Positions 479 to 32,510 of a stretch of DNA of 64,000 bases are shown one piece after another. The translations under genes and the position numbers were made by a program. The notes below the pieces were generated by a model. The model was not told the origin of the DNA. It did no database searches and was given only the letters and a program-made list of their open reading frames with translations. Position 1 is the first letter of the stretch. Each line of letters starts with the position of its first letter. The DNA lies in the NCBI GenBank assembly GCA_021796215.1, contig JAJYOK010000003.1:1-64000 (forward strand). Reading direction: 5' to 3'. This DNA comes from Bacteroidota bacterium. GTDB lineage: Bacteria; Bacteroidota; Ignavibacteria; UBA10030; UBA8401.

Positions 479-1978
479 TTAATACGCTCCTTTTCCAAAC
501 AGCACCACAGGAATTGTCTCAAGCAAAATCTCCATGTCGAATAGCAGCGATTGATTCTCCACGTAATACAAATCCAAAAGCACCATCTCCTGAAAGCCAA
601 TATAGCTTCGTCCTGAAATTTGCCACAGCCCGGTCATTCCCGGCTTCACTTTCGCTCTTTCCTGAATTCTGCTCCAGAATTCCGGCGATCCCTTTACCTT
701 CGCAAAATCAGAAGGAGGCAGAGGACGCGGACCGACAAGACTCATATCTCCCTTCAAAACATTGAACAACTGAGGCAGCTCATCGATGCTGTATTTCCGG
801 ATAAATTTCCCTACGCGCGTCAATCTCGGGTCATTCTTCATCTTAAACAATGCCCCGTCGGCTTCATTGAACTGGAAAAGGCTTTCCTTCCTTTCATCCG
901 CATCTTTCACCATACTCCGGAATTTATAAAAATAAAATTCTCTTCCCCCTTTCGTTGAGGAGCGCAGGTGTTTGAAAATGACCGGAAAGCCCGACTCAAC
1001 CAGAATGGCAGCCGATGCTGCAAGCAAAAGAGGCGAACAGAGCACGATCAACACGCACGCTGCAGCCATATCGAATCCTCGTTTTATTTTCCGCTGCAGA
1101 AATTCAATGCGGGTTCTCGGAGGAGAATACAACGTAATGCCGATAATATCCGGTATCCGTGCAGTCCGCAAAAGATTATCCGAAAGAGGTGAAAGTACAT
1201 TCAGCTTCACCCGATGTTCTCTGCATACCTTGGTCAATCTGTCAAAGCCATTTACTGCCAGCGACTCTGATGAAACAAAAACCCTGTCAATGCCATCGTT
1301 CTCAAAAACAGTGGAAATTTCCGAAACCGTAAACGTTGGAATGCTGTGCATGCTGCCAAACGTAATTTTCTTTCCAAAAGAAGCTTTTCGCTGCTTGTCC
1401 GGTGCTTGTTCCGCCGTTTTTGGGTGAAGGTGCGGTAGATTTTCAACAACAACCACTCCCTTTACTGCATAGCCAAGTTCCGGGAAACCAAGAAACCTCT
1501 CCACTACCTCTTGCGTCCAGCCATTATCGCCGGCAACAAGAGCGTGATGAATTCCGAACCCTTTTCCTTGCAGCCACAAATTCACTTTGTTCAGCATCAG
1601 GCGAAGCGCAATAAAAAAAACCGGGAGAAGTACAACAAAGGCAACGGCAAATCGGCGCGGAAATACCCCTAAATGCAAAACATCATACAAAGCAAACACA
1701 ATAAGCATTGCCCACACGTACGCCTTTCCGGCAAAGAGGAATTGACGGCGCACATTACTTCGGAAAATTGCCCGGTACGATCCGAACATGAACGAGAGAA
1801 GAACAAAAACTACCCCAAAATAAAGTGTAAGCCTGATGAAAACCGGGACATTTATTTTTGCCGCTCCCGGGAAATAATCTCTAAAATAGAGTCCTCCCAG
1901 AAAAGCAAAAAAAATCGCAAGGATATCAGAGAAAAGCGTAAGAAGAATAAAAAAACTGCGCCAATTACGTCGTAGCAT
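479..1978 (-). CDS. Polyprenyl sugar-phosphate transferase (exopolysaccharide initiating enzyme)
   Basis: The 499-residue protein has the architecture of the WbaP/WcaJ/EpsL family, which moves a sugar-1-phosphate from a nucleotide sugar to undecaprenyl phosphate and so starts repeat-unit synthesis at the inner membrane. Several hydrophobic segments fill residues 1-130, a Rossmann-like CoA_binding_3 region spans about 135-290, and the catalytic Bac_transf domain runs from about 298. That domain contains KFRSM, a D-E-L-P-Q motif, LVGPRP and KPGMTGLWQ. It is the most downstream gene of the minus-strand cluster, separated from the SDR gene by a 650-base gene-free stretch, so it may have its own promoter. 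The sugar specificity cannot be read from sequence. Confidence 0.93.
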   Translation of the reverse strand: MLRRNWRSFFILLTLFSDILAIFFAFLGGLYFRDYFPGAAKINVPVFIRLTLYFGVVFVLLSFMFGSYRAIFRSNVRRQFLFAGKAYVWAMLIVFALYDVLHLGVFPRRFAVAFVVLLPVFFIALRLMLNKVNLWLQGKGFGIHHALVAGDNGWTQEVVERFLGFPELGYAVKGVVVVENLPHLHPKTAEQAPDKQRKASFGKKITFGSMHSIPTFTVSEISTVFENDGIDRVFVSSESLAVNGFDRLTKVCREHRVKLNVLSPLSDNLLRTARIPDIIGITLYSPPRTRIEFLQRKIKRGFDMAAACVLIVLCSPLLLAASAAILVESGFPVIFKHLRSSTKGGREFYFYKFRSMVKDADERKESLFQFNEADGALFKMKNDPRLTRVGKFIRKYSIDELPQLFNVLKGDMSLVGPRPLPPSDFAKVKGSPEFWSRIQERAKVKPGMTGLWQISGRSYIGFQEMVLLDLYYVENQSLLFDMEILLETIPVVLFGKGAY

Positions 1979-2325
1979 AACAAAAAGTCTCAGGCAGTTT
2001 TACTATACGGTATGAATATTGAAGAATTTTTTCGTCGTTACTTCTTCTGCATTATGGATGTGCAGCATAACAGAAAAGTCTTAGCCGAAACTTATGGAGT
2101 ATTTTGCTTATTGTCAAGAGAATTCGGTAGTGGTGCATTTTGAAATTTGTGCTGCATTAAATTCTATGGTGTAGGGACGGTCGCAAGACCGTTCCTCTTT
2201 GAAAATGTACCATTACCGGGAATCTGCTGCAGACAGTGGTTCACTTTCAATCCCAATGTCATTCCCGAGTGTCCCGCTGTACCGAATGCCATAAAGCGGC
2301 ATTTTTATCGAGAATCTATTTCCTA
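1979..2325. other. Gene-free stretch with a hairpin repeat
   Basis: No convincing coding frame is present. A hairpin at 2174-2195 pairs GG(A)CGGTC with GACCGTTCC around GCAA and recurs at 26654-26673. A degraded copy of a dispersed sequence (TCATTCCCG ... GAATCTATTTCC), also seen near 29307, lies at about 2259-2320. The promoter of the sugar transferase presumably lies near 1980-2060 on the minus strand, but I see no clear -35/-10 pair. Confidence 0.5.
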
Positions 2326-2621
2326 TTCCCTGCTCCCTATTCACTTCTCCACACCTCTCAACTTCCTGACTTCCAACCTTCTCATCTTTTCCGACCTCTG
2401 ACTTCTGCCTTCCTCATTTCCTCAACTTCTCAGCTTCTCATCTTCTTAACCTCTCATCTTCTTGACTTCTCATCTTCTTAACTTCTGATTTCTTCCTACC
2501 CCTTACTGACTACCGATCCCTGTTCACTGTTTACTGTTAACTGTTAACTGCTCACTGTTTACCACCTTCTCATCTTCTTAACTTCTGATTTCTTCCTACT
2601 CCTTACTGACTTCTTTTCCGG
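2326..2621. repeat. Low-complexity polypyrimidine array (CTTCTCATCTTCTTAACTT-like units)
   Basis: On the plus strand this is built from short related words such as AACTTCTCATCTTC, TGACTTCTG and TTACTGTTAACTG. A 46-base block at about 2466-2511 recurs at about 2566-2611, exactly 100 bases on. On the minus strand the array is purine-rich and starts 10 bases after the stop codon of the SDR gene, so it would be the 3' tail of the long operon transcript. No protein is encoded. Confidence 0.65.
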
Positions 2622-2631
2622 AAGAATCTTG

Positions 2632-3684
2632 CTATAAGCCTTTCTTCTTCCATGAAAGATAAATCTCTTCAAAAGTTACATCTAAATTCTTTGTAATGTC
2701 CCACTGAGGATAGTGTTCTTTCATTTTTGATAAATCAGAAATATAGCAAATATGATCTCCTTCTCTATTTTTATCAAGGTATTCATAGATCATTTTTTTA
2801 CCGGAAATACGACTAATCTTATCAAAGGCTTCTAATATTGAAATAGAATTTTTCCTTCCTCCTCCAATATTATATACTTCTGCAATTCTCGGCTTTTCCA
2901 AAAATTCATTCATAAATGAGACAACATCATATGAATGAATATTATCTCGTACTTGTTTTCCTTTATATCCAAAAATATTGTACTTCTTTTCTTGAATATT
3001 ACATTTAATTAAATAGCTCAAAAATCCGTGTAACTCAACACCACTATGGTTCGGTCCAGTCAAACAACCCCCTCGCAAACAACAAGTAGGCATCCCGAAA
3101 TATCTGCCATATTCTTGCACCATAATATCCCCCGCCACTTTTGACGCACCGAAAAGTGAATGCTTCGATTGATCAATCCTGAAATCTTCTTTTATGCCAT
3201 TATAATATTCTTTGTCAGCGTAATCCCACCGTGTATCTTTTTCAATCAGATCCAATTCGTTCGGGGCATCGCCATAAACTTTATTAGTGGACATGTGAAT
3301 AAATGGGGTTTCCGTATTCACTTGCCTATTCGCCTCTAATAAATTTAAAGTGCCAACGGCATTAACCTCAAAATCATCAAATGGTCTCGATGCCGCTAAA
3401 TCGTGACTTGGTTGTGCAGCAGTATGAATAATTGCATCCGGCTTTATCTCCTTAACAATGTTAAGCACACTCGAGCGGTTCCGTATATCAATCTCAACAT
3501 GCTTAAAATTAGGATAAGTCTCCAACAATCTTTTTTGATTCCACCGTGTATCCCCCAGAGGGCCAAAAAAATCTGCTCTCATATTATTATCAATTCCAAT
3601 GATTTGATATCCTTTTTCAGCAAAAAAAGAAACTACTTCACTTCCAATTAAGCCCCCTGAACCGGTTACTATTATTTTTCCCAT
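2632..3684 (-). CDS. NAD-dependent sugar epimerase/dehydratase (extended SDR, CDP-paratose 2-epimerase-like)
   Basis: The 350-residue protein has an N-terminal G-x-x-G-x-x-G nucleotide-binding motif (GSGGLIG, residues 8-14) and a MSTNKVYGD block at 131-139, as in CDP-paratose/tyvelose 2-epimerase-like SDRs. It continues with a [11 protein letters not shown] block typical of this subgroup and a C-terminal NIGGGRKNS substrate-binding segment. The usual catalytic Y-x-x-x-K is F178-G-A-S-K182: the lysine is kept but tyrosine is replaced by phenylalanine. I recall this substitution in some close relatives, so it may define a variant rather than a mutation. It lies three bases after the WecG-type gene and probably modifies a nucleotide sugar for the cluster's polymer. 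The substrate is unknown. Confidence 0.85.
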
Positions 3685-22053: not shown

Positions 22054-22526
22054 TGCTTCTGCGCATCAGGCTGCGTCCGTGGCGGAACACCATCGCCGCC
22101 GGCGTTCTCTCCTCGCGCTCAAAAACTGCACGCCCTGAATTCGCTTTCCCACAGCAGTGTAAGCACCGAACGATAACGTTTCATGGAAACGTTCTGCTCA
22201 TATAGATATACAACATCACGCCTGCATGACGCATCCTCAGCAAACCACGCGTACGCCGGTACAAGGTCGACGCATGTCTGCATTTCTTTATACTCCCCTC
22301 GCCCTTTGGGAGAGGGGTATGAGCATGCCCGCCGGAACGATTGTGTAGGCTGGGTAAGGGCAAAAAAATCATACGCCGCCGATTCCTTTCGCACCCGGTA
22401 CCCTTTTGGGATCCATCGGAACGGAAAACATCTGCTGATGCAGGTCCACACGGTCTTTCCTTCTGTGCTGAGGATGACGGCAACAGGGTATGTCCCTATC
22501 CCTGCATACCGGATTGCCGCCGCCGT
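22054..22526. repeat. 473-bp direct repeat, left copy
   Basis: This block recurs at 25502-25974 with a constant offset of 3448 and no indels. I count four base differences, so identity exceeds 99%. The repeat ends 14 bases from the stop codon of the beta-helix gene. Its content is the 3' end of the ImmA/IrrE peptidase gene plus about 65 bases of flanking sequence. Homologous recombination between the copies would remove or invert nothing but the 3-kb segment between them. Confidence 0.93.
22119..22526 (-). pseudogene. Duplicated C-terminal fragment of the ImmA/IrrE-type peptidase gene
   Basis: The minus-strand frame encodes the last part of the protein at 25566-26426 (from P-V-A-V-I-L-S to E-S-E-F-R-A-C-S-F), including the in-frame palindromic insert, but not the HELGH active site. 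Three amino-acid differences separate the copies (V/A, S/N, A/T). Without the N-terminal catalytic part it cannot be a peptidase. It is best read as a by-product of duplication. Confidence 0.8.
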
Positions 22527-22539
22527 TCGTTATCGAAAT

Positions 22540-25501: not shown

Positions 25502-25974
25502 GCTTCTGCGCATCAGGCTGCGTCCGTGGCGGAACACCATCGCCGCCGGCGTTCTCTCCTCGCGCTCAAAAACTGCACGCCCTGAATTCGCTTTCCCACA
25601 GCAGTGTAAGCACCGAACGATAACGTTTCATGGAAACGTTCTGCTCATATAGATATACAACATCACGCCTGCATGACGCATCCTCAGCAAACCACGTGTA
25701 CGCCGGTACAAGGTCGACGCATGTCTGCATTTCTTTATACTCCCCTCGCCCTTTGGGAGAGGGGTATGAGCATGCCCGCCGGAACGATTGTGTAGGCTGG
25801 GTGAGGGCAAAAAAATCATACGCCGCCGATTCCTTTCGCACCCGGTACCCTTTTGGGATCCATCGGAACGGAAAACATCTGTTGATGCAGGTCCACACGG
25901 TCTTTCCTTCTGTGCTGAGGATGACGGCAGCAGGGTATGTCCCTATCCCTGCATACCGGATTGCCGCCGCCGTT
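25502..25974. repeat. 473-bp direct repeat, right copy
   Basis: This is the probable parent copy of the repeat at 22054-22526, because here it is joined in frame to the rest of the ImmA/IrrE-type gene. Differences from the left copy fall at the codons for T (A), N (S) and A (V) and at one silent site. Confidence 0.93.
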
Positions 25975-26426
25975 AACGATACCCGGAAGTGCCGGGCAAT
26001 CTCTTTAAGCAAATCAAAATTTATTGCTCTCCCGCGTATAAAGGCTCCGTACCACGGTGCATGCATCAGCAGCTCGGTCGCAAATATGTTTGCACGATCC
26101 TCCCGTGTTTTATTGACCGTGAACGAAAATAGATCTTCCGCCGTGCATCGGTCTGTGCGGACCGCCGTACAATCTTTCTCATGAAAGAAATGCCCTAACT
26201 CATGCCCGATGCTGAATCGCTTTTGCCCCTCTTCCTTTATTTTTGAATCAATGGTGATCAAACCGTAATCGGCTGTGAATGTTATTCTGCTCATGCATCC
26301 CGTCAGATCGGCTTCCTCGATAATTAAGTGTTCTGCGTTTGCGATCTCTTCAAGATTCAGATCACTGGGCGAAGACAAATGATAATAGTCTATTAATGCT
26401 TTCGCTTTTTCTTCGGGCAATTCCAT
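25566..26426 (-). CDS. ImmA/IrrE-family metallopeptidase
   Basis: I set the start at the ATG at 26426 (286 residues, MELPEEKAKALIDYYHL); an open frame continues to 26615, but that part is made of repeat sequence. Residues 74-80 give the zinc site G-H-E-L-G-H-F. A second acidic motif follows at 109-122 (E-D-R-A-N-I-F-A-T-E-L-L-M-H), as in COG2856 peptidases. The C-terminal half (F-P-F-R-W-I-P-K-G-Y, R-Y-x-S-V-L-T-L-L-W) is a conserved extension. Residues about 208-231 are an insert encoded by a palindromic element. Relatives cleave repressor partners (ImmR, DdrO) to switch genes on. Here no HTH repressor is adjacent; a small acidic protein and a sigma factor lie upstream, with repeat-filled gaps. 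Confidence 0.82.
   Translation of the reverse strand: MELPEEKAKALIDYYHLSSPSDLNLEEIANAEHLIIEEADLTGCMSRITFTADYGLITIDSKIKEEGQKRFSIGHELGHFFHEKDCTAVRTDRCTAEDLFSFTVNKTREDRANIFATELLMHAPWYGAFIRGRAINFDLLKEIARHFRVSLTAAAIRYAGIGTYPAAVILSTEGKTVWTCINRCFPFRWIPKGYRVRKESAAYDFFALTQPTQSFRRACSYPSPKGRGEYKEMQTCVDLVPAYTWFAEDASCRRDVVYLYEQNVSMKRYRSVLTLLWESEFRACSF
25742..25764. repeat. Palindrome inside the peptidase gene
   Basis: CCCCTCGCCC and GGGAGAGGGG pair around TTT with one mismatch. The element, about 72 bases with flanks (25734-25805), is translated in frame as a P-T-Q-S-F-R-R-A ... P-K-G-R-G stretch. It interrupts an otherwise normal family alignment. The same palindrome is in the duplicated fragment at 22294-22316. 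Confidence 0.75.
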
Positions 26427-26460
26427 GCAGGAAAAAATGTAATTGCAGAGCGCCTGAGTC

Positions 26461-26548
26461 GAAGGGTTCTCATCTCTAAAAGAGACAGTCGCCCTGAGCG
26501 AGCCGCCGAAGGGTTCTCGTCTCCAAAAGAGACAGTCGCCCTGAGCGA
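26461..26548. repeat. Two-copy tandem repeat, period 47
   Basis: GAAGGGTTCTC(A/G)TCTC(T/C)AAAAG followed by AGACAGTCGCCCTGAGCGA occurs at 26461 and again at 26508. The tract lies directly upstream of the peptidase start and may have replaced its original upstream region. Confidence 0.8.
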
Positions 26549-26653
26549 TCAGGAACATCGGGGGCTTGCTCACAATGACCTTGCTTGTGAAATATAACAT
26601 TACTAAAATCTGCACGGATTTGTATCCGCGCCTGCAATATTTTTCCTCTGGAG

Positions 26654-26673
26654 GAACGGTCGCAGGACCGTTC
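26654..26673. repeat. Hairpin repeat, second copy
   Basis: GAACGGTC pairs with GACCGTTC around GCAG, followed by a run of T on the plus strand. It is related to the hairpin at 2174-2195, and both copies are followed by an A/T-rich segment with AAAATG(C/T)ACC. It lies between the small-protein gene and the peptidase gene and could also act as a terminator for plus-strand transcripts. Confidence 0.65.
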
Positions 26674-26749
26674 TTTTTTCAAAAATGCACCGCTGCTGAA
26701 GATTGCGGCTGCTTCGTGAAGGCCTTTCAGCAGCGTTTTGCCAAGAAAG

Positions 26750-27142
26750 CTATTTCGTTTTGTCTCTTAACAGCTCTAACAATTTCAGTTTTTTTATATC
26801 ATCCTCAATGCCGTCTCGGTCGGGTGTACGCGGTTCTTCTCCGCCGGATCCTGTGTCTAATTTTCTGAACGCAAGCGCGAGACCCTTGGTGTGTGTTCCA
26901 ACCTCCGGGATATGCGATGCCAGGTTTTCAAGCAGTGTGGTATAATTCTTCTTGAATTCTTTCCCTCGCGCGAGTTTTGCATCCGCCTGTGCCTTGTGCA
27001 GCAGCGTCAGAGCTTTTTGTTCTGACACCGTACTGTCTACGCCCGCTTCGTGCAATTCCTTAAGAATCATATCCTCATCGGCATCCTCGAAGAGTGATTC
27101 TAAATAGAATTCAACAAAATTTCTCAGGACGTCCTGTGTCAT
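26750..27142 (-). CDS. Small acidic helical protein between sigma factor and ImmA/IrrE peptidase
   Basis: I choose the ATG at 27142 (130 residues, MTQDVLRNFVEFYLESL); a longer frame reaches 27205 through sequence that looks non-coding. The protein is acidic in its first third (F-E-D-A-D-E-D-M-I-L-K-E-L) and rich in lysine towards the end, with no signal peptide or membrane helix. I know similar small proteins beside ImmA/IrrE genes, with a D/E-rich start and an E-A-G-x-D segment, but no function. It could be the peptidase's substrate or an anti-sigma factor; both are inference. Confidence 0.65.
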   Translation of the reverse strand: MTQDVLRNFVEFYLESLFEDADEDMILKELHEAGVDSTVSEQKALTLLHKAQADAKLARGKEFKKNYTTLLENLASHIPEVGTHTKGLALAFRKLDTGSGGEEPRTPDRDGIEDDIKKLKLLELLRDKTK

Positions 27143-27335
27143 GACTGAAATCCTCGTCGTTGGTAAACGTTCTGTACTGCTTCTGCCTGTCCGCCGCCCA
27201 TACACCGTGCTATGGCAGGCAGATGTGCAATGGAAAAGTATTAATGTAAGTCATGTTACGCAAAAAGATTCTTTTTGAAAATCAAAACCAGAGTAGCGCC
27301 ATTCCCGTCCCGACAAAGTCGGGAGGAATCCAAGT

Positions 27336-27412
27336 ATGGATGGTACGCTAAAGCGTACCATGACGAACGTACTTTTCTTGGTGGATTTTTCCCATGCGTA
27401 ACGTGAATGATA
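27336..27412. repeat. Dispersed palindromic element, copy 2
   Basis: A perfect hairpin (TGGTACGC 27341-27348, GCGTACCA 27353-27360, loop TAAA) is followed by the same T-rich tail as copy 1 at 181-257. A second small palindrome, CCCGACAAAGTCGGG at 27309-27323, precedes it. It fills the gap between the sigma factor and small-protein genes. Confidence 0.7.
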
Positions 27413-27431
27413 TAAGAATAACCGGAAAAAA

Positions 27432-28112
27432 CTATACTGCTGAGCGGTTGCGTTTTTTATTTGATAAGGTGAAAAGCGTATTTTTGATTCTTTTAAGCGC
27501 ACATTCAACATCCCGCACTTCGATCCCCAAAGTCTTCGCAATCTCGATGTTTGATGTGCACCCCTCAATTCTTTGTTCGAAGACAAACGATGCATAGACA
27601 TCATCCTTCAATTCATCCATGCACCTCGAGATCAACTCTTCAAAATTCTCTCGAAAATGGTTTTCCGCTAAATCCTGCCTGCTGAATTCTTTCAGAATCT
27701 CACGGAGAGTTTCTTTGCCGAACTCCCCTGCTTCATCAAACAATGCGCTTTCCTCCCACCGTTCCTTCTTGTTTCTCTCGTTCCGTATAGAGCTTAATAG
27801 TGCCAGTCTGATGAATTTTTGAAAATCTGGTATCGTATTTTTATACCATTTCCTTCGCATGGTAATAATGCTTTCCAGAACATTCTGCACCGCATCTTCT
27901 GCAGTGAAACCTTTGAACGAGTCCTCGCCAAAATACAAGTGTATCTTGCTCAACGCAAAATAAAGAAGCCGCTTGTGAAAGTTCGGTACGGTGTCATATG
28001 AATATTGTAACGCTGCAATGATCTCATCCTTTGAAGCATATTCAGCATTCTCGTCTGCTGCACCATCAATAGCACGATAGTCCGTTTGTTCTTGAAGTTG
28101 TTGTTCGCTCAA
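27432..28112 (-). CDS. Sigma-70-family RNA polymerase sigma factor (divergent)
   Basis: The start codon is TTG at 28112, with GGAGGA five bases before it. The 226-residue protein has a region-2-like block at about 60-125 (F-T-A-E-D-A-V-Q-N-V-L, then F-Q-K-F-I-R-L-A-L-L-S-S-I-R-N-E-R) and a region-4-like helix-turn-helix near 188-215 (N-I-E-I-A-K-T-L-G-I-E-V-R-D-V-E-C-A-L-K-R). Length and layout fit an ECF-type or related factor. The TTG start suggests low expression. The genes downstream are a small acidic protein and an ImmA/IrrE-type peptidase, an arrangement that could regulate the factor by proteolysis. Confidence 0.7.
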   Translation of the reverse strand: MSEQQLQEQTDYRAIDGAADENAEYASKDEIIAALQYSYDTVPNFHKRLLYFALSKIHLYFGEDSFKGFTAEDAVQNVLESIITMRRKWYKNTIPDFQKFIRLALLSSIRNERNKKERWEESALFDEAGEFGKETLREILKEFSRQDLAENHFRENFEELISRCMDELKDDVYASFVFEQRIEGCTSNIEIAKTLGIEVRDVECALKRIKNTLFTLSNKKRNRSAV

Positions 28113-28243: not shown

Positions 28244-28743
28244 TGCCTGCGTTCCCTGGAATCCATGTTTTTGAATTATTTTTCAAGGCCGTTTCCCGCT
28301 GTCACGGGAATAACACAGCCAGCCGCACTCGTCATGCCCGAACGCTTTAGTCGGGCATCCATTGTATTCTCATTCCCAAATTCCGAACGAGTTGAAATGT
28401 GAATGCCTGCGAACGGTGGGATCCATGTTTTTGAATTATTTTTCAAGGTCGTTTTCCGCTCTCGCGGGAATGACACAGCCAGCCGCATTCGTCATGCCCG
28501 AACGCTTTAGTCGGGCATCCATTGTATTCTCGTTCCCAAATTCCGAACGAGTTGAAATGTGAATGCCTGCGTTCCCTGGAATCCATGTTTTTGAATTATT
28601 TTTCAAGGCCGTTTCCCGCTCTCGCGGGAATGACACAGCCGGCCGCATTCGTCATGCCCGAATGCTTTAGTCGGGCATCCATTGTATTCTCATTCCCAAA
28701 TTCCGAACGAGTTGAAATGTGAATGCCTGCGTTCCCTGGAATG
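28244..28743. repeat. 160-bp tandem repeat, three full units plus a partial
   Basis: Units start at 28244, 28404, 28564 and (partial) 28724, each with TGCCTGCG, giving an exact 160-base period. Each full unit contains the hairpin ATGCCCGA...TCGGGCAT and a CCCGC...GCGGG palindrome. Small frames on both strands are incidental. The middle unit differs at its start (GAACGGTGGG for GTTCCCTGGA). Confidence 0.95.
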
Positions 28744-29469
28744 ACTTCGCTTATTTTTGGTTTTGCGTAACATGAGTGAGAATTTGAAAATTTCATCCTT
28801 TAGTAACAGGTACTTGCTTTAGCGGGATTTTACCATCGTGTCAGAAAAAATTCTTTTCGGAAAAAATCTTTTCTCTCGAGTACTGATAATAAAGGGCTTC
28901 TTTCACCTTTGAGGACAGGCATTCCTGCCTGTCAAATTTGAAAACCATGTGAGAGTAGGACAGGCATTCCTGCCTGTCAAATTTCAAAAACCATGTGAGC
29001 CTGTCAAAAATAAACCGTCAGGGATGAAAAATGAAAAAAACATATGAACAACAATTAAACTTATCTTGCTTTTATGTTGTACTCCGATTCCGCATAAATC
29101 TGCCGCCATGTAATTCCTGCATATCTGCTGCGAAAAGATCGGTAAGAAAATATAATGATCACCGGAACAGCGGCACTCCCGATCGGAGAGTTTTCCGTAA
29201 AACCATTAAAATACGCGCGCCTGATTTTTTCCCCTCACTGCGAAAAACAAGACCGTTCTTCGGTCAATCATTTTTTTGTAACGGCTCGGCGTTCTCTCGT
29301 TGATCGTCATTCCCGCACGTTTTTGGCGGGAATCTATTTCCCGCTGTCGTAAAATTATGGATTCCCGCCGGAGCATTACACCGCTGAATGCGGGGCAGCA
29401 ATGACGTTGAGCAGTTACCTTTGGTCAATCATGCTGTTACTTTTTAAACATTTCTATGGAGATACAATT
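28744..29469. other. Gene-free stretch with palindromes
   Basis: No convincing gene is present. It contains the 45-base repeat listed separately, a CATTCCCGC...GCGGGAATC palindrome near 29309-29332 of a type also seen near 2259, and CCCGCC...GCGGGG-type pairs near 29365-29395. The end may hold the promoter of the 29470 gene. Confidence 0.5.
28914..29003. repeat. 45-bp direct repeat with a perfect hairpin
   Basis: GACAGGCA-TTCC-TGCCTGTC occurs at 28914-28933 and 28959-28978, each followed by AAATTT(G/C)AAAA and CCATGTGAG. The period is 45 bases. A third half-hairpin (CCTGTCAAA) follows near 28992. Confidence 0.9.
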
Positions 29470-30153
29470 ATGGCTTCACTCAATAAAGAAATACTTGGTA
29501 AAGTAAAAGGCTCGCTGGGAGATGTCACCTTCCGCCAGCGCAATGGAAAAACATTTGTCTCTGCACGGCCCTCTTCTTTTATGCCGGGCACCGATGAAAA
29601 TTCTAAAGCTCGGCGGGAGAAATTTGCCCTCGTGATAAAACTTGCCCGGGCGATCAACTCCGTTCGCTCTCTGAAGGAAATTTGGTCTGAAAATGCCCCG
29701 CAGGATGCATCGGTATTTAATTATATTACTCAGACCAACTATCCGATGATGAATGCTGACGGATTGACCGGTCTCGTCAAATTGGTTCCTTCCCTCGGAT
29801 TCAATGTCGGCAATCCCGTTGTTGCATTAGGTCCGGCAGAGGTAAAGGTCAATCTCGATGCGCTTGGCAACACAGCCGGCATTGACGCGGCAGGTGAACC
29901 CGTGCTAAAGCTCGTCTCGGTTGTCTACCTCTCTGATCCTTCGGATACTTCGTTTGACAAGAGTCAGTTCCTGACACTTGCATCCGACCCAAAAGCAACC
30001 GACCTTGCAGCGCCGTTGGAATTCACTATTGCGTTAAGCGATGTTGAACGCCAGATGCTTGCATTGTATCAACTCCGCAAGGGATATTTTGCGGTGATAA
30101 CGCTTGATCCTGCAGATCAAGTCGTTCATTACTCAAATACCTTTGTCGGTTAA
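29470..30153 (+). CDS. Protein of unknown function, DUF6266-like
   Basis: I place the start at the ATG at 29470, preceded by GGAG; an upstream frame from 29401 adds 23 unlikely residues. The 227-residue protein begins MASLNKEILGKVKGSLGDV and continues R-Q-R-N-G-K-T-F-V-S-A-R-P. This resembles the G-K-V-G-N-x-V-x-x-x-x-x-G-x-x-V-x-R-x-x-P opening of the DUF6266 family found in Bacteroidota. The rest looks beta-rich. No signal peptide or membrane helix is visible. It stands alone in a repeat-rich zone. Function is unknown. Confidence 0.7.
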   Translation: MASLNKEILGKVKGSLGDVTFRQRNGKTFVSARPSSFMPGTDENSKARREKFALVIKLARAINSVRSLKEIWSENAPQDASVFNYITQTNYPMMNADGLTGLVKLVPSLGFNVGNPVVALGPAEVKVNLDALGNTAGIDAAGEPVLKLVSVVYLSDPSDTSFDKSQFLTLASDPKATDLAAPLEFTIALSDVERQMLALYQLRKGYFAVITLDPADQVVHYSNTFVG

Positions 30154-31537: not shown

Positions 31538-32257
31538 CTATTGTGCAGCTTTCTGCACTAATGTGTTTTCTCTTCCGTAAAACAAATCGTCCGCTAAAAT
31601 GGCAATTTCGTTTTTCACTTCTTCATACCGGGGCTTTTGCACCCATCGAACGATATCGAATTTTTCCACAGGAAACGACCGAAGAATATTAAAAATAATT
31701 TCCGGCTCGACGCCGGCTTCTTTCGTTTTCGATTCTTCAATGATGCTTTTCCACTCGAAATGTTTCGTTTTAGAAAGCGTCCAAATGTCGGCAACATCTT
31801 TTGGTTCAAAACGAAACAGTGCGCTGATCTTGTTCGACAAAATATTCCGCCAACTGTCTATGCTGCCCAAGCGCCCGTTATTTTCAAATTCACCATAGTG
31901 TCTTGCCACATCGTTCACAAAATCAATCTTCAGGGTACACTCTGTCCCCGCTGAAGAGGAAACAAATATTTGGGAAAAATCCTGCAGTCTTCGAACAGTC
32001 GTGCGATCAACAACAAACGTACTTTCTCGCTCCGCCTCGAACAGCGCCCTCAAAATACGTTCGACCCATGATCCGTATTCGTGATTGGCATTGACAAAGA
32101 GATCGAGATCGTCTGAATACCGATGATTACAATAATGTCTGCTGAGCGCGGTACCACCTGTCAGAAAAAAGGGTGTGTTTAATTTTCTGATAATATTCAT
32201 CACCCCATCCTGTAAAGGGTACAGCTTCTCCAGATAGTATTGATCGTATGAATTCAT
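31538..32257 (-). CDS. AbiEii/AbiGii-type nucleotidyltransferase toxin
   Basis: I choose the ATG at 32257 (239 residues, MNSYDQYYLEKL). F-F-L-T-G-G-T-A-L-S followed by Y-S-D-D-L-D-L-F-V is the nucleotidyltransferase signature of AbiEii/MenA-like toxins, which block growth by adding nucleotides to tRNA or other targets. The rest is helical, as in the family. It overlaps the preceding 127-residue gene by 131 bases in another frame; a later ATG at 32200 would still overlap. The pair is placed within the polysaccharide export operon, between the SLBB and Wzz-like genes. Confidence 0.85.
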   Translation of the reverse strand: MNSYDQYYLEKLYPLQDGVMNIIRKLNTPFFLTGGTALSRHYCNHRYSDDLDLFVNANHEYGSWVERILRALFEAERESTFVVDRTTVRRLQDFSQIFVSSSAGTECTLKIDFVNDVARHYGEFENNGRLGSIDSWRNILSNKISALFRFEPKDVADIWTLSKTKHFEWKSIIEESKTKEAGVEPEIIFNILRSFPVEKFDIVRWVQKPRYEEVKNEIAILADDLFYGRENTLVQKAAQ

Positions 32258-32510
32258 ACCGTTCACGTAATTCCGGCTGCCGCAATGTTGCAATAATTTG
32301 TTTTGTCAATAATGTTCTCACGGTGTCAATTCCCGCAATGTCAAGAATTGCGTGCCATCCGAGCCGTTCAAGCATCCGCACAAATATTTTTTCCCGGCTC
32401 AAAACAGGATGGGGGTGTTTCCCGCTCATAACGGCGTAGAGCGTTTCACCGGAAATATCTGCATCCCAGAATATTTTCTTCAGTGTCTGTTTTTTCTCGT
32501 CCGTTGTCAT
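32127..32510 (-). CDS. Probable antitoxin of the AbiEii-type toxin
   Basis: The 127-residue protein begins with a K-K-I-F-W-D-A-D segment, then I-F-V-R-M-L-E-R-L-G and I-A-G-I-D-T-V-R-T-L-L. I associate this pattern with DUF6922-type proteins that precede AbiEii-like toxins. It starts eight bases after the SLBB gene stop and its 3' third overlaps the toxin gene. No DNA-binding motif is evident. The antitoxin role is inferred from position and family resemblance. Confidence 0.65.
   Translation of the reverse strand: MTTDEKKQTLKKIFWDADISGETLYAVMSGKHPHPVLSREKIFVRMLERLGWHAILDIAGIDTVRTLLTKQIIATLRQPELRERYEFIRSILSGEAVPFTGWGDEYYQKIKHTLFSDRWYRAQQTLL

Follow-up and report, generated by a model that had tools for sequence, protein, structure and literature searches.

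Three neighbouring genes in the 64,000-nucleotide stretch analysed here (the window) encode an ECF-like sigma factor, a small acidic protein and a CapP-like peptidase. This trio is probably a sigma switch gated by proteolysis and comparable to the CapH/CapP regulator of immune operons, with sigma in the regulated role. We found that the operon is conserved, that its protease is of the CapP type, that the small protein has a tail motif in common with Xre repressors, and that relatives have immune operons divergent from sigma as well as mirrored promoters; the proteolysis-gated sigma switch put forward in the preliminary description was supported. The features concerned are the following.

27432..28112, minus strand: ECF-like sigma-70 family factor of 226 aa, TTG start preceded by GGAGGA, TIGR02937
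27143..27431, no strand: gap between the sigma and small-protein genes with a dispersed palindromic repeat
26750..27142, minus strand: small acidic helical protein, 130 aa, predicted anti-sigma factor and predicted protease substrate
26855..26881, minus strand: LALAFRKLD, motif of the predicted cleavage site, within the small protein's disordered loop
25566..26426, minus strand: CapP-like ImmA/IrrE (M78) zinc peptidase, 286 aa from ATG, PF06114 and PADLOC capP
26190..26204, minus strand: HELGH zinc site of the peptidase
29470..30153, plus strand: divergent gene without a family match, 227 aa, candidate sigma target

The sigma factor and the CapP-like peptidase of the window

The source assembly comprised 3.37 Mb in 44 contigs, and relatives from the same class include Melioribacter roseus (Ignavibacteriota); loci L071 and L041 share gene coordinates, and the window was accordingly assigned to that class. 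The three consecutive minus-strand genes were all found where the preliminary description had placed them, with a middle protein of exactly 130 aa (27142-26750), and no HTH repressor gene lay between the three, as had been claimed. The divergent sigma-70-type factor with a TTG start and a strong Shine-Dalgarno sequence was borne out by GGAGGA upstream of the start, by a match to NCBIfam TIGR02937, by its relatives and by its fold. The TIGR02937 match (E=7e-9) covered residues 46-213 and scored 35.5 bits, which is below the model's own cut-off of 42.9; 13 of 26 sigma relatives matched the same model. The AlphaFold2 (AF2) model of the window sigma had a pLDDT of 86.7, and a fold search returned mostly sigma factors, including region 4 of sigmaE with a TM score of 0.72. 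Region 2 and region 4 of an ECF sigma were both recognised, with the TIGR02937 score below the curated cut-off and the fold evidence strongest for region 4. NCBI labels three plasmid homologues as "sigma-70 family RNA polymerase sigma factor". Assignment of the window protein to the ECF-like sigma-70 family is supported by relatives, region-4 fold matches and NCBI annotation.

The peptidase matched PF06114 with E=5e-13, and its HELGH site was intact as previously reported; H75, E76, G78 and H79 were invariant in the alignment of its relatives. The reading frame is open upstream to 26615, and homology begins near the ATG at 26426. PADLOC capP matched with E=5e-47 over nearly the whole profile, and the nearest solved structure was CapP (7t5t, E=8e-21), covering the peptidase and C-terminal domains, followed by IrrE at 0.0025. 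Judged by sequence, the closest relative is the CBASS-associated protease CapP and not ImmA; this kinship speaks for phage defence and DNA damage more than for general stress. Single-stranded DNA activates CapP, which then cleaves the repressor CapH, and PprI cleaves DdrO likewise (PMC13373217, PMC10904395).

Repeats had been described as filling the gaps between the genes, and they were present in both the 289-bp gap between sigma and small protein and the 323-bp gap between small protein and peptidase. Co-transcription in the window is uncertain because these repeats separate the genes. The sequence of the first gap recurred at more than 10 further sites of the genome. Upstream of the sigma gene, a repeat unit of about 160 bp was present three times in tandem (28260-28760). 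A palindromic repeat, cccctctcccaaagggcgagggg, was inserted in frame in the peptidase gene (25700-25810), giving about 20 residues more than in relatives. The last 409 bp of this gene (25566-25974) were duplicated with 99% identity at 22119-22527, 3.4 kb downstream; between the two copies lie a gene for a beta-helix protein and what may be a PIN-toxin gene pair.

Conservation of the trio

Searches with the peptidase identified the order sigma, small protein and M78 peptidase on one strand in 54 loci, and the trio was spread over eight or more phyla. The same order was present in 13 of 13 plasmid loci inspected, which were reached with a Colwellia peptidase (L087) as query; direct tblastn of the window sigma sequence against plasmids did not find the sigma. 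Co-occurrence in fixed order had been set beforehand as a test on which the proposal could fail, and it was passed strongly in these 54 loci and 13 plasmid loci. In the search of the phylum, the peptidase matched in 26 of 297 genomes, and gene calls around each of 30 fetched places gave the trio order in 23, with three or four of these small ORFs masked by an antisense ORF and recovered on inspection. A scan of 84,980 species genomes yielded 80 peptidase loci. Twenty-nine of them carried the sigma and belonged to Bacteroidota/Ignavibacteriota/Balneolota, Pseudomonadota, Myxococcota, Chloroflexota, Planctomycetota, Verrucomicrobiota, Acidobacteriota and Nitrospirota; two viral contigs also carried the sigma. 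Where the trio was absent, the gene preceding the peptidase mostly encoded an Xre/CapH-type repressor.

The presence of sigma changed only twice on a tree of 93 peptidases, compared with 30.7 changes for shuffled labels, and the divergence of the three proteins was congruent (Mantel r 0.74-0.79, p 0.0005). These few changes and correlated distances show that the module is old and that swaps between it and the Xre form have been rare. The recurring order, and a partner type that tracks the peptidase tree, place the trio beyond chance. An ordinary defence-island neighbourhood without functional coupling could account for the patchy spread, with the peptidase matched in only 26 of 297 phylum genomes, and for genomes of the same genus that lack the small protein or the peptidase. 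This explanation is nevertheless very improbable given the fixed order, the 4-bp overlaps frequent between trio genes, the deep co-inheritance and the mirrored promoters described below.

The small protein and its arginine tail motif

The small protein had no Pfam family, and a fold search against the PDB gave no match, with no solved anti-sigma factor resembling it. It stands between sigma and peptidase in nearly all loci of the module. Its AF2 model (mean pLDDT 73.5) showed helices at 3-77, a disordered stretch at 82-104 and a helix at 108-129. As the alignment of 20 relatives showed, R93 is the sole near-invariant residue besides Met1. In a larger set the arginine was kept in 42 of 50 small proteins. 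It lay some 30 residues from the C-terminus in surroundings that resemble [LM]-x-[AQ]-[FAH]-R-[NKDEG]-[LG]-x4-[ST]-x2-D, and the motif was present in 13 of 13 plasmid small proteins. The Xre repressors of the other loci carried the arginine in 37 of 38 tails, in a "AFFRKFSKLDPED"-like context. These Xre partners include close relatives (1e-17) of the solved HTH domain 7t5u, which we take to be CapH.

The motif was weak in single sequences. Searching with the Xre tail as a single-sequence HMM yielded low scores, and ungapped scoring missed the window protein, which has a 6-residue loop insertion. The tails were instead compared by PSSM, hhalign and position tests. A profile of the Xre tail only scored small proteins above their shuffles with a Fisher combined p of about 1e-13, an over-simple figure since the proteins are related. 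When the full Xre and small-protein families were compared by hhalign, exactly the tails aligned (P=0.0056). Among genes directly before the peptidase that were outside the training set, 25% reached 3 bits, compared with 0.6% of 2,345 other locus genes; about six within that 25% were Xre genes with long start codons and are trivial.

This arginine tail motif, common to the Xre repressors that partner the protease, lends independent support to the earlier suggestion that the middle protein is the peptidase substrate. DdrO is cut next to an arginine, at L106|R107 in D. deserti. E116-L117-R118-G119 form part of the DdrO cleavage-site region, in which R118 has been modelled in contact with ssDNA (PMC10904395). 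By sequence, the small-protein motif fits this known region, and the predicted cut in the window protein lies next to R93, at F92|R93. The motif sits in the only low-confidence, presumably disordered stretch (82-104), after the helical N-terminal domain. This layout fits a substrate whose N-terminal half holds the sigma factor, and the small protein may accordingly bind sigma through that half and act as an anti-sigma factor.

The peptidase might instead cut the sigma factor itself, with the small protein as adaptor or shield, by analogy with CapH, since sigma is likewise a DNA-binding protein. We consider this quite improbable, because the tail motif was on the small protein in nearly all loci, whereas sigma tails rarely came near the score threshold. 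It is also unlikely that the small protein stabilises or co-activates sigma and is cut by the peptidase to end the response. Conserved order and the tail motif alone cannot separate an inhibitor from an activator, but the tagged protein of the Xre version is a negative element (CapH, DdrO), and CalpT and Csx30 of the CRISPR triads are inhibitors (PMC11417357, PMC10028731).

The preferred reading, with the small protein as inhibitor and substrate, would work as follows. In unstressed cells, the small protein would keep sigma inactive. If the peptidase behaves like CapP and PprI, ssDNA arising from damage or from replicating phage would activate it, and it would then cut the conserved [A/F]-R tail of the small protein. 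Sigma, once released, would use mirrored promoters to transcribe both its own and the divergent operon. The divergent target would be a CBASS or ubiquitin-like immune system in many annotated relatives and gene 29470-30153 in the window.

Similar tails were observed in other proteins encoded before the peptidase. In locus L092, an HsdS-like type I restriction specificity subunit of 551 aa (1540-3195) directly precedes a CapP-like peptidase and carries the tail motif IAMAARGKVEGMSDQAKQAIEDLFGEDE, a sequence feature which suggests that a restriction enzyme may be under proteolytic control. In two further loci (L114 and L124), the gene before the peptidase encodes a Bacillota zinc-ribbon plus HTH_17-like protein with the same tail (VAARGAGQLSDND; AVAARGNTISNSD). 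We regard as evenly balanced the broader reading that a portable cleavage tag, [AF]-R plus a short acidic helix, marks the targets of CapP-type peptidases, that moves of the tag rewire immunity, and that the sigma form is a widespread undescribed branch in which defence is turned on by sigma release. The tag bearers would be Xre repressors, zinc-ribbon/HTH repressors, anti-sigma factors and this one type I restriction specificity subunit.

Divergent operons, mirrored promoters and known systems

PADLOC identified CD-NTase cyclases divergent from sigma in L052, L086, L087, L089, L090 and L120, phospholipase effectors in L052, L091 and L112, 2TM effectors in L089, and E1-E2 and JAB proteins in L051, L087, L108 and L128. 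At the plasmid loci, CBASS or multiubiquitin operons annotated by NCBI were divergent from sigma. The Xre form occupied the same position beside the same operons.

The 12 plasmid loci in which a gene diverges from sigma carried TGTCCG-N17/18-GCATA, running both ways, in the intervening 130-300 bp. It was found on 16 of 24 strands, compared with 0.11 in shuffles, and on both strands in 7 loci; in L276 the mirror symmetry was kept with a changed -35-like box (CTGAAA). Three relatives from the clade of the window had another mirrored pair, GGCAAAA-N15/16-AGTAAT or TAGTATA, with 6 matches compared with 0.25 expected. These promoter motifs were first spotted by eye and then tested on the same loci. 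The mirrored elements were read as a promoter pair served by one sigma. When all intergenic regions were searched for plain 4+4 dyads, only AT-rich words came up, at close to the frequency in shuffles.

In the window, the 1.36-kb region between sigma and the divergent gene, with its 160-bp tandem repeats, contained no mirrored promoter pair. The divergent gene 29470-30153 had no Pfam, PADLOC or PHROG match. About 10 other loci, among them L041, L043-L047, L232, L236-L238 and L255, likewise had a homologue divergent from sigma. Its 230-aa family was present in 24 of 197 genomes of the class, with up to 14 copies per genome, and about 11 of 30 inspected copies adjoined the sigma trio. This gene is the best candidate for the sigma target in the window, and its family also occurs elsewhere. 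Members of the family were often located beside short genes of 85-90 aa. An AbiEii-like nucleotidyltransferase (Pfam 2e-11), a possible type IV toxin or defence gene, is encoded at 31538-32293.

The family could work as proposed while the window copy is decaying and inactive. The intergenic repeats, the in-frame palindromic insertion in the peptidase, the duplicated peptidase tail, the TTG start and the missing promoter pair all fit such decay, which we nonetheless think rather doubtful because the three frames are open, the HELGH and AFR motifs are intact and the divergent gene is kept.

The known CBASS controllers are CapW, CapH/CapP and CapK/CapS (PMC13373217). The trio resembles CapH/CapP in its CapP-type M78 peptidase and in the common tail motif of the neighbouring presumed substrate. 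In many relatives it also lies divergent from CBASS or ubiquitin-like operons; the divergent gene of the window had no family match. It differs in that no Xre/CapH HTH repressor stands upstream of the window peptidase, its place being taken by sigma and a small non-HTH protein, and in that CapH/CapP acts by repressor loss whereas the trio would release an activator. In PprI(IrrE)/DdrO and ImmA/ImmR, an M78 peptidase likewise cuts its partner, and the loop cut in DdrO contains an important arginine (PMC10904395). The partner in these systems is an Xre repressor, however, and no sigma factor is involved.

The statement that no described system has such wiring did not hold, since CalpL/CalpT/CalpS and Csx29/Csx30/CASP-sigma are CRISPR precedents (PMC11417357, PMC10028731). 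As in these triads, the operon encodes an ECF-type sigma. CalpL/CalpT/CalpS shares the wiring of protease, anti-sigma factor and ECF sigma and the immune context (PMC11417357); it differs in its Lon-SAVED protease activated by cA4, in its type III CRISPR setting and in CalpT, which at 33 kDa is much larger than the small protein. In type III-E CASP, a protease also lifts inhibition of an ECF sigma (PMC10028731), but this is a CHAT protease activated by target RNA, and Csx30 has about 565 aa. The trio has neither a Lon-SAVED or CHAT protease nor a link to type III CRISPR; its protease is of the M78 type, and its relatives are linked to CBASS or ubiquitin-like operons. The module appears to join the wiring of the CRISPR triads with the protease and genomic place of CapH/CapP; its protease belongs to a third class, and its presumed small inhibitor is unrelated to theirs. 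The literature searched contained no account of a trio of M78 peptidase, anti-sigma factor and sigma, and no sigma/peptidase trio was found in the conflict-system papers examined.

The trio bears on what turns on CBASS and other suicidal immune systems of this kind. In the laboratory strain Cereibacter sphaeroides 2.4.1, plasmid pDE carries a trio (L265) with a divergent nucleotidyltransferase operon and offers a testable cleavage site and promoter. If the proposal is true, it would add a sigma-based immune controller across many phyla, and immune sigma factors released by proteolysis would have evolved with three or more unrelated proteases (Lon, CHAT and M78).
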